Shown here: piece by piece, positions 29,267 through 63,622 of the stretch
Layout: each line of letters opens with the position of its first letter
Position numbering within the stretch: the stretch's first letter is position 1
From: Paenibacillus sp. OVF10
GTDB taxonomy: Bacteria > Bacillota > Bacilli > Paenibacillales > Paenibacillaceae
Direction: 5' to 3'
Length of the DNA: 64,000 nucleotides
Assembly: GCA_022836915.1 (NCBI GenBank)
Contig: CP094668.1
Span: 1,178,001-1,242,000, forward strand
Notes under the pieces: generated by a model
Told to the model about the DNA's origin: nothing
Database searches by the model: none
What the model saw: only the letters and a program-made list of their open reading frames with translations
Made by a program: the position numbers and the translations under genes

Positions 29267-29624
29267 TTTATAATCCAGATGTGCAGACTCGGATGGGTTA
29301 GTGAGCAGTGTGGATCAAAGATTATGGTTGCCTGAATACCCGAACGGTTTCATGGACAATATCATAAATAATAGTAAGCACATCATTGATTGAAGTAGAA
29401 CGAAATGAGCTGTTTAAAAGATCTTTTTAACGTATTAATGTAATGAAAGCTGACAAAATATTCTGGTTATCATCGCTTCAATAGGAAATGAAGGAAATAC
29501 ACCCAAAGAAATCGTTAAGTTTGTTGACACTGATCTTCCGGTCGATTAATCTTAATGAAGAAGAAATTAATGACTTCCATGACTGTTCTGACATAAGCTC
29601 AGAATGGTTCCATATAGCGGATGA
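29267..29624. other. Gap with no recognised gene
   Basis: About 360 bp, AT-rich. Short open frames on both strands have no ribosome binding sites or family resemblance. Should include the promoter for the riboswitch transcript. Confidence 0.4.
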
Positions 29625-29892
29625 TAACGAGCGGGAGAGACCTGGGTTAGCCGAGCACAATGGCTAGTATTCAGGCACCGAAGGAGCAAGCTGCTGCGCA
29701 CCCGGCGCAGTGGTTAATCTCTCAGGTAAATGTACCATCGTTGGACGCAACTCTGGAGAGTGCGCGAACTGCGCCACCCAAGGGGTATATGATCAGTGGG
29801 ACCGGTGAACTTGTCTGTAATCGCAGGCAATGCACCTTGTCGTGAGACACTGCTGATCGTGAAACTCTCAGGTATCGAGGACAGAGAGAGGG
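29625..29892 (+). promoter_or_regulatory. Tandem glycine riboswitch
   Basis: Two consecutive aptamers. The first starts GCGGGAGAGACC (29631) and contains GGCACCGAAGGAGCAAG, then AATCTCTCAGGTAAA; the linker continues into CTCTGGAGAG. The second contains GCAATGCACC and ends GAAACTCTCAGGTATCGAGG-ACAGAGAG. These are the conserved GAGAG/CTCTCAGG elements of glycine aptamers. The last stem overlaps the 5' arm of the terminator at 29877-29918, so glycine binding can switch transcription of sdaAB-sdaAA, most likely on. Confidence 0.9.
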
Positions 29893-55259: not shown

Positions 55260-55311
55260 ACTTACCTTGAGTTGGAGTTCATCGGTGTTGTAAGCCGGGA
55301 AGGAGTAAGTT

Positions 55312-55776
55312 ATGAACAGCGAATTTACCATAGCGGTGCATTGTCTTGTTTTTCTGTCGATGAGAGATGAGTGTATGGCCAATAGTGAAGATTTGTCCCA
55401 GAGTGTGGGTACACACCCGGCCAGAGTCCGTAAGGTACTTAGTGTTCTGCGCAAGCATGGTTACCTGACGACCAAGGAAGGTGCTCATGGTGGGTACTTG
55501 CTTAGCCGTCCAAGTGAAGAGATCAAGCTGGGAGAATTGTACAGACTGGTAGCTGGTGGTTCACTCGGTCCCAACTGGTGCTCAGGGGAGTCCGGTTCAT
55601 CGTGCGTGGTATCTTCCAATATGCAAGATGTGATGGGGAACATATATAACGGAGGCGAAGAGGCGCTCAGCGCTTATTTTGACCGTATATCCATTCAAGA
55701 TGTGAAAGAGCGCATAGGTCATGGGGAAGCGATAACCTTGTCGCTAAATGGATTGCCTGCAAAGGAGAAGTCCTGA
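55312..55776 (+). CDS. Rrf2 family transcriptional regulator
   Basis: 154 residues. Winged HTH: MNSEFTIAVHCLVFLS, THPARVRKVLSVLRKHGYLT, KEGAHGGYLLSRP. Two Cys (about residues 86 and 94: NWCSGESGSSC) in the region where some Rrf2 proteins hold an Fe-S cluster; three Cys are not present, so it is closer to YwnA-type members. GAAGGAG precedes the ATG. A nitroreductase gene follows after about 260 bp and may be its target. Confidence 0.9.
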   Translation: MNSEFTIAVHCLVFLSMRDECMANSEDLSQSVGTHPARVRKVLSVLRKHGYLTTKEGAHGGYLLSRPSEEIKLGELYRLVAGGSLGPNWCSGESGSSCVVSSNMQDVMGNIYNGGEEALSAYFDRISIQDVKERIGHGEAITLSLNGLPAKEKS

Positions 55777-60127: not shown

Positions 60128-60187
60128 TAAAAAGATGGCGCTACAAGGGCATCGGGCTTACCAATACAATTGGGGAGGCAATTGTTT

Positions 60188-62064
60188 ATGGGGAATCGAT
60201 CATCATTGTGGAAGCGCACATTACGTACAGCGGGAGTATCTCTGCTGAGTTCCGCGCTACTGGTTACTTCGCTTGGATTGGGCAACACGCCGGTAACACA
60301 TGCAGCAGGTGCAAGACAGATGGAATATCTGGATCGTGGTGTGGTGGCTGTGAAGACCGGGACAGGTGTGTTTGTCAGCTGGCGGCTTCTGGGAACGGAA
60401 GGATCGAATGTATCGTTTAATGTCTATCGGGATGGAACCAAGGTGAACGCTACGCCCATAACAAACAGCACCAACCTTCAGGATGCAAGCGGGACAAGCA
60501 GTTCCAAATACACGGTTCGCGCTGTAGTGAGTGGAACGGAGCAGGCTGCTTCAGCAGCAGCGAGCGTATGGGGCAACAATTATCTGTCCGTACCGCTTAG
60601 TGTACCCGCAGGTGGGACAACGCCTGATGGAGTAGCCTACACTTACAGTGCCAACGATGCCAGTGCAGGTGACCTGGATGGTGATGGTGAGTATGAATTG
60701 ATCGTGAAGTGGGACCCTTCCAACTCCAAGGATAACTCCCAGAGTGGTTATACCGGGGAAGTGTTTATCGATGCCTACAAATTAAATGGAACACGCCTCT
60801 GGCGAATTAGTCTGGGCAAAAATATCCGTGCCGGCGCTCACTACACCCAGTTCATGGTGTATGATCTCGACGGTGACGGTAAAGCCGAGGTTGCGATGAA
60901 AACAGCCGATGGCACCAAGGATGGCACCGGCGTGGTCATCGGTGATGCCAGCAAGGATTACCGCAATTCCAGCGGTTATGTATTATCTGGCCCCGAATTC
61001 CTGACGGTTTTCAATGGGCAGACCGGCAAAGCACTCTCCACGGTGAACTACGAACCGGCGCGCGGCAATGTGTCCGACTGGGGAGATAACTACGGCAACC
61101 GGGTGGACCGATTCCTTGCTGCCATTGCTTATCTGGATGGAGAGCGCCCAAGTCTGGTCATGGCGCGTGGGTATTATACGCGCACAGTGCTGGTGGCTTA
61201 TAACTGGCGGAATGGACAGCTAACCAAACAATGGACGTTTGATTCCAATACCTCAGGTAACTCGGGTTATGCCGGGCAGGGCAATCATAATCTAAGTGTG
61301 GCGGACGTGGATGGAGATGGGAAAGACGAGATCGTTTATGGTGCCATGGCGGTGGACGATAACGGCAAAGGATTGTACACGACAGGACTTCATCATGGCG
61401 ACGCTATGCATCTGAGTGATCTGGACCCGGACCGCCCTGGACTTGAGGTATTTCAGGTCCATGAGACACCGTCCAATGCCGGAGTGGAATTCCGTGATGC
61501 AGGTACAGGCCAGTTAATCTGGGAGTCAAAACAACAAAGGATATTGGACGCGGCATGGCGGCAGATATCGATCCGAGATATAAAGGTGCCGAAGTATGGG
61601 CAGACGGCAGTCTGTACACAGCCAAAGGGCAAAAACTCGGGACAACCCTGCCTTCCTCCACGAATTTTGGAATCTGGTGGGATGGTGATCTGCTCCGCGA
61701 ACTGCTGGACAGCAACCGAATCGACAAGTGGAATTATGCCAACAGCACAACGATGAACCTGCTCACCGCATCCGGCGTTTCTTCGAACAACGGAACCAAG
61801 TCTACGCCGAATCTGCAGGCCGACCTGTTCGGGGACTGGAGAGAGGAAGTGGTATGGCGGACCAATGACAGCTCAGCGCTGCGGATCTATACCACAACAG
61901 CAGTTACGGACAAACGCATCTATACGCTGATGCATGATCCGGTGTACCGTCTTGGCGTCGCTTGGCAAAATGTAGCCTACAATCAACCGCCACACACCGG
62001 CTTTTATCTGGGGGAAGGCATGAACACACCACCGGTACCCAATATCCGGTATGCGGGCAGATGA
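60188..62064 (+). CDS. Rhamnogalacturonan lyase, PL11 (YesW/YesX) family (frame broken by one missing A)
   Basis: 625 residues after correction. Secreted pectin enzyme cleaving rhamnogalacturonan I by beta-elimination. Signal peptide about 1-40 (cleavage near THAAG). Core: MEYLDRGVVAVKTGTGVFVS (RQMEYLDRG start), then repeated calcium-binding DLDGDGEYELIVKWDPS, DLDGDGKAEVAMKTADGT and DVDGDGKDEIVYGAMA. One more A in the run at 61528-61531 gives WESKTTKDIGRGMAADIDPR. ATG 60188 with GGGGAGG nine bases upstream. No CBM visible. Monocistronic, terminator 62138-62173. Confidence 0.93.
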
Positions 62065-62137
62065 GGAATGGACAAGATGTGACCGTCCAATTCTGTGTAT
62101 GTTTACAATAGCCAGCGAAGCAAAGGATTTGCTGAAG

Positions 62138-62173
62138 GGAACAACGGACGATGGTTCGTTGTTCCTCTTTTTT
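62138..62173 (+). terminator. Terminator of the rhamnogalacturonan lyase gene
   Basis: GGAACAACG and CGTTGTTCC, perfect stem, followed by TCTTTTTT. Confidence 0.88.
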
Positions 62174-62212
62174 GCCAATAGCCCAGAAATACGGTAAAAA
62201 TCGGAAAAAACG

Positions 62213-62241
62213 TTTGACAGGTATATAGACTGCCTTTATTA
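62213..62241 (+). promoter_or_regulatory. Promoter of the sulfate-uptake operon
   Basis: TTGACA (62213-62218), 17-bp spacer, TATTAT (62236-62241). Just downstream, ACTTACTAAACAGGTAGGAA (62250-62269) contains an imperfect inverted repeat (TTACT/GGTAG region) near the expected transcription start, where a sulfur regulator such as CymR could bind; that is a guess. Confidence 0.7.
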
Positions 62242-62362
62242 TACGTATATAACTTACTAAACAGGTAGGAATAATAAAAATGAATCTGTTTTCATTGTGA
62301 AAACGGTCATTTTACAGACAGATGCAACCATGCAACCTGAACAGAATAACGTTCTCACCGTA

Positions 62363-62474
62363 TAGACGGAGGAACACCGCAGCGCATCCTTTCCGGATGA
62401 AAGCATACACGGCCTAGGGCCGGCATGACTTTATGGGGAGAAGTGCGCGGGGGTTCCTCCGTCTTCTTGTTTTT
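62363..62474 (+). promoter_or_regulatory. Unassigned structured leader ending in a terminator, upstream of sbp
   Basis: AGACGGAGGAAC (62363-62374) is perfectly complementary to GTTCCTCCGTCT (62452-62463), which is followed by TCTTGTTTTTT. The 77 nt enclosed contain two hairpins, CATCC/GGATG (62384-62398) and CGGCC-TAG-GGCCG (62409-62421), and purine-rich joining segments. The leader runs from about 62249 to the start codon at 62545. The layout is that of an attenuator or riboswitch; it does not match the S-box, T-box, TPP, FMN, cobalamin or glycine signatures I know. Confidence 0.65.
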
Positions 62475-62544
62475 TACGGGGCGTTCGATCCTGTTCAGCC
62501 GGCCTGAGGTAGTCATGCAGATCTATATCGGGGGAGTATTATTC

Positions 62545-63622
62545 ATGAAAAAGAGAATTCATAAGGGTATTTTGGTTGGTCTGGCACTGGTATTAACAGG
62601 AGTTCTGGCAGCATGCGGATCGGATAGCGGCGGGTCCAGTGCGGCAGGAACATCGGGGGAGCGGAAGGCGGCACAGAAGGGCCCAAGGCCATCGAACTGC
62701 TGAATGTTTCCTATGATCCAACGCGGGAACTCTATGAACAATATAACAAAGCGTTTGCGGCGCATTGGTTGAAAGAGAAAGGCCAGGAAGTGACCATCAA
62801 GCAATCCCATGGGGGATCGGGCAAACAGAGTCGTTCTGTTATTGACGGACTGGATGCAGACGTGGTGACGCTGGCATTGGGATACGATATTGATGCGATT
62901 GAAGATAAAGGTCTGATTAACGAAGGTTGGCAGGATAAATACGAGCATAACAGCGCTCCGTATACCTCTACGATTGTATTCCTTGTGCGTAAGGGTAATC
63001 CAAAAGGCATCAAGGACTGGGATGATCTGATCAAAGGGGATACGCAAGTCATCACACCGAATCCCAAAACGTCCGGCGGGGCGCGCTGGAACTATCTGGC
63101 GGCATGGGGATATGCCCTTAAGCATAATAACAATGATGAAGAGAAAGCGAAGGAATTTGTTGGTGAATTGTTCAAACATGCGCCTGTGCTGGATTCGGGT
63201 GCTCGCGGGTCTACGACAACGTTTGTTGAACGTGGCATTGGGGATGTGCTTCTTGCTTGGGAAAATGAAGCTTTCCTATCGGTAAAAGAGTTGGGTCCGG
63301 ACAAATTCGATATTGTCGTGCCTTCGGTTAGTATCTTGGCTGAACCACCCGTTGCAATTGTGGACAAAAATGCAGACAAAAAGGAAGCCGCGACGTGGCG
63401 GATGCCTATCTGAAATATTTGTACAGTGAAGAGGGACAGACGATTGCGGCTGAAAATTATTACCGCCCAACGCTGGACAGCGTGGAGGAAAAATTCAAGG
63501 ATCAGTTCCCGGCGCTTGAACTGTTCACGTTGAAAGATGTGTTCGGCACATGGCGGGATACTCAGGCCAAACATTTCAATGACGGTGGTATCTTCGACCA
63601 GATTTATGTTCCAGGCAGCTAA
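62545..63622 (+). CDS. sbp: Sulfate ABC transporter substrate-binding lipoprotein (two frame breaks)
   Basis: 359 residues after correction. Lipobox VLAAC-GS (Cys about residue 22). Sulfate-binding protein signatures: [45 protein letters not shown] and [20 protein letters not shown]. Breaks: one missing G in the run at 62655-62659 (restores [17 protein letters not shown]) and one missing G at 63383-63384 (restores [20 protein letters not shown]). ATG 62545 has GGGGGAG upstream. Binds sulfate (or thiosulfate) outside the cell; operon with cysT. Confidence 0.93.

Follow-up and report, generated by a model that had tools for sequence, protein, structure and literature searches.

The leader of the sbp operon in Paenibacillus sp. 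OVF10 probably (at a rough probability of 0.6) acts as a transcription attenuator, in which a small hairpin, P0 (read-through), competes with an intrinsic terminator (stop) behind a CymR-like control of initiation, and in which the deciding factor would act on P0. The two-state anatomy is supported by sequence comparison and by calculated folding energies; that the balance between the two states is regulated is what we infer. We rate the leader as a new RNA element, but one whose kind, the attenuator, is known, with a riboswitch as the alternative reading. The likelihoods assigned to this explanation and to its rivals overlap, because the riboswitch and the four-segment readings considered below share the attenuator anatomy.

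Results

Anatomy of the sbp leader

In the window, i.e. the whole stretch of 64,000 nucleotides that was analysed, the leader and its gene comprise the following features:

62214-62242, + strand: sigma-70-type promoter, TTGACA-17-TATTAT, 11 of 12 consensus matches
62256-62276, + strand: CymR-like operator ACTAAACAGGTAGGAATAATA, overlapping bases 1 to ~25 of the transcript, whose start is predicted from the -10 box
62351-62375, + strand: P0 hairpin, proposed antiterminator, GUUCU(CA)CCGU-AUAG-ACGG(A)GGAAC
62364-62375, + strand: 5′ arm of the terminator helix P1, common to the P0 hairpin
62403-62429 (about), + strand: P2, helix inside the terminator
62453-62464, + strand: 3′ arm of the terminator helix P1, forming 12 bp with the 5′ arm without mismatch
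62464-62475, + strand: U-tract TTCTTGTTTTTT of the intrinsic terminator, read from the sequence
62545-63622, + strand: sbp, sulfate/thiosulfate ABC transporter substrate-binding protein; its frame is interrupted in the present assembly

Much of what the original prediction had claimed for this locus is borne out. The near-consensus promoter has the expected spacer of 17 bases, and a promoter with 10-11 of 12 matches precedes the leader in all 68 rows listed (the window genome and 67 relatives). The perfect 12-bp helix does run into the U-tract. A sulfate-uptake gene lies downstream as stated, since the sbp orthologue at locus L002 scores above the cut-offs of the NCBIfam models NF008022 and TIGR00971 (sulfate) and NF008106 (thiosulfate CysP). 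In most of the relatives listed sbp is a single reading frame. In the window both sbp and its upstream neighbour, a gene for a lyase-like secreted protein (60170-62064; named by eye), are split over several frames; since the completeness of the assembly is 89%, these breaks look like sequencing indels. A strong terminator-like hairpin of 13 pairs followed by a T run (62137-62166, + strand) lies 3′ of the lyase-like gene.

The terminator helix and the helix embedded in it

The stretch 62355-62480 has a minimum free energy of -60.4 kcal/mol, as against -38.34 ± 3.65 kcal/mol for 200 dinucleotide shuffles, none of which was as good (z = -6.04); for the longer stretch 62255-62560 none of 100 shuffles was as good (z = -5.43). 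The multibranch region with two hairpins that had been predicted is one possible fold, but the minimum-energy fold of 62355-62480 is one extended arm, and only the second hairpin, P2, is conserved. A CAUCC..GGAUG hairpin is restricted to close relatives, as seen by eye on the alignments.

For comparison between species 83 leaders were extracted, not including L060, which has a run of N, and L069, whose match lies in unrelated sequence; L081, L083 and L084 gave no P0 match. Alignment A1 holds 42 of the 83 leaders, and A2 holds 30 rows of A1, omitting the outliers L046, L048, L062 and L067 as well as eight rows near to kept ones. Judged from the alignments, P1 and P2 covary across species. On A2, 89.5% of the cells of the P1 plus P2 structure are paired (82.0 ± 0.7% in shuffles), and its covariation score is 0.289 (0.168 ± 0.011), a value reached by none of 500 shuffles; when the structure is slid by 1-3 columns, the paired fraction falls to 39-54%. 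Changes on both sides occur in seven of the eight P2 pairs and in five of the 14 P1 pairs, but the two outer P2 pairs are paired in only 65% of cases. RNAalifold, run on A1, recovered P0 and a portion of P2 and missed the P1 terminator helix.

The P2 consensus across species is GC[AGAC]A[CGG..CCG][GUUU]GAC. The window has GC[AUAC]A[CGGCC..GGCCG][GCAU]GAC, in which the inner block has an A-C mismatch at its third pair. Both halves of the P2 core are found, by a loose match, at 68 of 80 loci, and in some members that keep P0 and P1 the P2 helix is different or derived. A further helix flanks the terminator in the window:

62337-62344 (CUGAACAG) with 62491-62498 (CUGUUCAG), + strand: lineage-specific 8-bp flanking helix, its 3′ side lying beyond the terminator

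It takes the form ACUAAACAGG/CCUGUUUAGU in some other species, and as a general feature it was rejected, because it is missing from many members (rows up to L059).

Conservation and distribution

A Blast search with the 221-nt leader found matches at E ≤ 0.001 in 48 of 75 genomes of the genus; family-wide, the weaker matches mostly cover just the first ~35 bases of the leader. A covariance search was run with a model, R1, built from the 30 chosen A2 rows. At E ≤ 0.01 it found the element in 199 of 394 genomes of the family (the genomes of the 30 rows being counted among them), in four of 19 genera and in 72 of the 75 genomes of the genus. The three missed within the genus are G019, G029 and G065: G029 has a distant sbp homologue only, and two of the three have diverged forms recognizable by eye (L338, L340). 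Each genome has one R1 match save G194, whose second match is on the opposite strand at the same place, and 40 genomes searched again with laxer filters gave one place each. In G140 (L355), a genome of an element-bearing genus, neither operator nor P0 is seen.

The exact pattern GTTCTNRCCGTANNNACGGAGGAAC matched 83 stretches in a collection of one genome each of 84,980 species. Among the 80 matches listed, all are titled Paenibacillus, Fontibacillus or Paenibacillaceae, sbp follows within 1.6 kb in all 80, and an operator-like site lies upstream in 79. The lack of conservation upstream of orthologous sbp genes that would have spoken against the original prediction was thus not observed. A set of 33 matches in viral_contigs to a pattern of 15 specified bases was set aside as probably due to chance.

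Nor did the leader match a catalogued family. In the whole window Rfam 15 matches only two glycine aptamers elsewhere; in 61900-62700 at E ≤ 5 the sole hit was a chance match to caiA (18.6 bits, gathering threshold 55.5), and 14 related loci gave no match at E ≤ 1. S-box/SAM-I, T-box, thiS/HMP-PP and every other Rfam family were therefore rejected for the leader in the window and at the 14 related loci. The absence of an S-box, as originally claimed, agrees with the lack of any SAM-family match in the window, in 61900-62700 and at these loci. The two glycine aptamers form a tandem riboswitch pair at 29622-29886 on the + strand (RF00504, 51.8 and 33.2 bits).

P0 as a predicted alternative to the terminator

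P0, which does not figure in the original prediction, pairs 62351-62361 with 62366-62375, so that the 3′ arm of P0 is the 5′ arm of the terminator. Sequence comparison and energy calculation support P0 and P1 as mutually exclusive folds. As computed for the growing transcript of the window, P0 still stands complete when the RNA has reached 62452, is in part displaced by 62458, and has given way to the terminator by 62464. The same calculation was made for 121 distinct main-type leaders, namely those from L001-L228 with the main P0 pattern, the operator and a terminator arm, diverged members being excluded. P0 is present in 107 of the folds ahead of the last arm (in the other 14 it is not the predicted fold), and the terminator in all 121 complete folds. 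With medians of -7.4 kcal/mol for P0 and -46.2 kcal/mol for the P1 domain, the complete RNA favours the terminator widely. The calculated energy landscape is that of an attenuator with the terminator as its final state.

Because of this wide preference, P0 might be no more than a step in folding, with termination taking place constitutively: the leader, a terminator with a conserved hairpin, would then lower basal expression, and CymR at the operator would do all the regulation. The terminator being the predicted minimum-energy state of every full leader, and the apparent CymR-like operator overlapping the start site, agree with such a scheme. We nevertheless consider it decidedly unlikely, as it leaves unexplained the 12 near-invariant bases just 5′ of the 5′ arm of the terminator (GUUCUNRCCGUA), the conserved P2 core and the joint arm changes in diverged species.

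These joint changes are also what bears on the pairing of P0. Its consensus is GUUCU(CA)CCGU-ANNR-ACGG(A)GGAAC, and all nine pairs are possible in all 30 rows of A2; eight of the nine never vary, so that covariation is absent in the main set. In the diverged leader L147, which has an apical stem CCAC..GUGG and the terminator 3′ arm UUUCUCCA, all three arms are altered jointly. L127 and others, a group from the same genus, have the terminator 3′ arm UUCUCCGC; here P0 can be built on GCC..GGC, and L142/L143 show GCU..AGC in place of the GCC..GGC of their sisters. A third alignment, A3, contains one row per distinct 14-mer, L148, L342, L344 and L346 falling outside the extraction pattern. Its 25 distinct apical stems comprise 100 cells, of which 99 are paired and 12 are changed on both sides (4.1 ± 1.3 in shuffles), but ten of the rows were picked by the pattern CCGG-N4-CCGG, which has the pairing built in, and without these ten rows changes on both sides are found in L147 alone. 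By eye, P0 is weak or lost in the diverged leaders L124, L266, L268 and L270-L272. P0 is thus well conserved, but the evidence for its pairing is less firm than for P1 and P2.

The anatomy nevertheless has the parts of an attenuator: a terminator hairpin with a U-tract precedes the gene, and a conserved hairpin, if one with thin covariation, excludes it. Of the original prediction, the conserved leader linked to sbp, its form of a controlled terminator and the label of attenuator are supported.

A refinement of this explanation, not exclusive with it, would be a four-segment attenuator of the trp type without a leader peptide, with sensing done by the 5′ end of the RNA. The candidate first segment lies in the operator:

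62264-62272, + strand: possible segment 1, GGUAGGAAU, which could pair with the P0 5′ arm (weak)

Pairing of segment 1 with GUUCUNACC (segment 2) would free segment 3 for the terminator. In full-length folds segment 2 pairs upstream with at least five bases in 115 of the 121 leaders, each pair of the register being present in 92-98 of them, and at least seven pairs form in 108 of 121 as against 253 of 605 with shuffled upstream parts. Moreover, CCUACC is the exact partner of GGUAGG in the diverged leaders L147, L265, L267-L269, L271 and L340. Yet shuffled upstream parts still reach at least five pairs in 435 of 605 cases, a high background beside the 115 of 121, for which reason we hold the four-segment scheme to be unlikely. 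Segment 1, in addition, hardly varies, and it is a weak candidate because 31 of 40 operator-bearing leaders of other genera keep its GG, many of them without an obvious partner. Attenuation of the trp type mediated by ribosomes on a leader peptide was rejected, as the 121 leaders have no conserved leader peptide. Counting ATG starts only, 64 of them contain an open reading frame of four or more codons (49 with a Shine-Dalgarno-like 4-mer), and the commonest peptides are unrelated.

A CymR-like operator at the predicted start site

ACTAAACAGGTAGGAATAAT or a close variant starts about 8-14 bases past the -10 box in the 68 rows listed. Together with a preceding CATAAC it resembles the CymR site of Bacillus subtilis cysK, CATAATACCAATACAAATAGTCGGAAATTGAGGT, as printed in an excerpt of PMC11487621, and from this similarity we take 62256-62276 to be a CymR-like operator. 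An excerpt of PMC3828012 names cysK, ssu, mccAB and tcyP as CymR targets; the operator sequence is not given in PMC2869319. As far as the excerpts of PMC11487621 and PMC3828012 go, the B. subtilis operators are alike in presenting a site of the type CATAA..CCAA..GGAA over the start of a sulfur-gene promoter; the sbp operator differs in having an RNA attenuator downstream, and CymR binding to it is a prediction. The operator was not noted in the original prediction, and its likeness to the cysK site makes it doubtful that CymR control is absent here.

In the window genome the sbp site is the sole one within three mismatches of the full operator pattern. Of 11 similar sites examined elsewhere, three lie at sulfur-type genes. 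Genome G226 has one before cysK (above the NCBIfam cut-off) and another before a binding protein whose best match, below the cut-off, is a cystine binding protein; in G122 a similar site lies beside a symporter gene of the sodium:dicarboxylate family. TcyP belongs to this same family. Counts with a relaxed operator pattern were below those of the reversed-pattern control in all four genomes counted, and a site within two mismatches was found at only three of 30 cysK-homologue loci.

The window genome contains five Rrf2 genes above the Pfam cut-off. One of them (L334) adjoins a cysteine-desulfurase-like gene (named by eye), the neighbourhood that cymR has in B. subtilis. An Rrf2-family regulator gene (PF02082, 88.5 bits) lies at 55309-55773 on the + strand, ~7 kb upstream of sbp.

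Leaders of sbp orthologues in other genera

Elsewhere in the family the sbp orthologues mostly have a promoter and operator followed by a small hairpin like CCGG-ANNA-CCGG, and most lack a terminator. These counts refer to 42 leaders (L341-L354 and L376-L403), the set omitting L338-L340 and L355 (element-bearing genera), L356-L361 (distant homologues) and the second copies L362, L404 and L405. An operator-like site (within seven mismatches of 21) occurs in 40 of the 42, and a CCG..CGG hairpin at most 60 nt after the operator in 34 of the 42, compared with 239 of 4200 shuffles of nearby 60-base stretches. Since the other genera mostly keep the operator and a P0-like hairpin without a terminator, P0 may be the older part; operator and hairpin may predate the terminator, or the terminator may have been lost repeatedly. 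By eye, the 5′ arm of a terminator overlaps the CCGG hairpin in L351 and L400 as well, with different arm sequences, which suggests that the overlap design is older or arose twice.

The CCGG-N4-CCGG of these genera is palindromic DNA near the predicted start site, and P0 might accordingly be a DNA dyad, i.e. a second operator, rather than an RNA hairpin. We regard this as very improbable: the loop varies in length (4, 5, 7 or 9 bases) while the stem is kept, the distance between operator and P0 varies by ~70 bases in Paenibacillus, and P0 contains an invariant U-G pair in all 30 rows.

Sequestration of the Shine-Dalgarno sequence by ACACC in the other genera was not supported either; on inspection by eye L341, L342 and L376 agree with it and most leaders do not. 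Many ribosome-binding sites in L341-L403 have the form AGGGGUG(U), an impression that is biased, because the rows were listed with a pattern for that form. On two contigs, G305:C11 (L344, L362) and G315:C1 (L345), two divergent sbp homologues lie 0.7-0.8 kb apart, the second copy in each genome having a TAA within the row of its open frame.

Discussion

We propose that the sbp operon leader places two controls in series, a CymR-like operator and then a transcription attenuator. The operator over the predicted start would, by similarity, repress initiation when cysteine is plentiful. In the emerging RNA the 5′ part would fold first into P0; once the last arm is made, it would strip off the 3′ half of P0 and close the intrinsic terminator around P2, and transcription would stop before sbp. 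Read-through would require that P0 is kept folded, or P1 kept open, during a short decision time. Termination would be regulated, sulfur starvation favouring read-through, by a factor that acts on P0. For this factor we favour a trans-acting RNA-binding protein that holds P0, since P0 is the most widely shared part, persists where P2 is replaced and has a counterpart in genera without the terminator; the main rival is a directly sensed metabolite.

The RAT hairpins bound by the BglG/LicT/SacY antiterminators follow the same logic. They are imperfect hairpins, some 25-30 nt long, with a 3′ arm that overlaps the 5′ arm of a terminator, and P0 is built alike; the sbp leader differs from them in sequence and in regulon, concerning sulfate rather than sugar uptake. 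In Firmicutes S-box (SAM-I) leaders also control sulfur genes by transcription attenuation, but the sbp leader has a different anatomy and no Rfam match.

If a metabolite were the signal, P2, with or without P0, would bind a sulfur compound (sulfate, sulfide, cysteine, OAS, APS or PAPS being candidates) and shift the balance between P0 and the terminator. We treat such a riboswitch as the main, though less likely, alternative. With P0 as the only sensor the P2 core would stay unexplained, and P2, unlike plain terminators, is a covarying helix in which unpaired or bulged positions (GC, A59, GAC) are conserved. The strict linkage to sbp at the 80 loci examined also fits a riboswitch, and there is a precedent for a terminator-embedded aptamer: judging from an excerpt of PMC6478431, the HMP-PP (thiS motif) riboswitch carries a conserved RNA inside an otherwise classic terminator, has an alternative fold that excludes the terminator, and keeps the tip of the terminator hairpin common to both states, which shows by analogy that compact terminator-embedded designs exist. 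The sbp leader differs from that RNA, as far as the excerpt describes it, in its sequence and in having its excluding hairpin 5′ of the terminator; it gives no Rfam match and is linked to sbp. Against a metabolite sensor, P2 is replaced, by eye, with P0 and terminator kept, in L126, L129, L130, L133, L135, L137, L140 and L144, and the exact-pattern matches listed all come from one bacterial family. The element is, moreover, found before one gene only, for which reason a ligand cannot be read from the gene context. That the leader represents a new riboswitch class, so far confined to Paenibacillaceae, in which P2 and/or P0 would directly detect sulfate, or a product of the first steps of its assimilation, and regulate the import of sulfate via a terminator-embedded aptamer, appears doubtful, though possible.

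In open-licence papers we found no report of a sulfate, cysteine or sulfide riboswitch and none on Paenibacillus sbp leaders. A word search (Paenibacillus, sulfate, sbp) in excerpts of PMC11109978, PMC8632094, PMC6429828 and PMC7266159 returned no such motif; one of these excerpts mentions a candidate, unrelated to this leader, that lies upstream of genes for STAS proteins in Streptomyces. According to an excerpt of PMC5670726, a Paenibacillus transcriptome has been screened against Rfam.

With the attenuator as the preferred reading, an uncatalogued leader RNA tied to one gene joins the mechanisms that control sulfur assimilation in Paenibacillus, a large genus found in soil and on plants, where it appears to be stacked on a CymR-like control of initiation. 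If a protein is the signal, there would be a new RNA-binding regulator of sulfur uptake to discover; if it is a metabolite, the leader would define a new class of riboswitch. Since the same family shows the hairpin with and without the terminator, it may reveal how an older hairpin comes to be incorporated into an attenuator.
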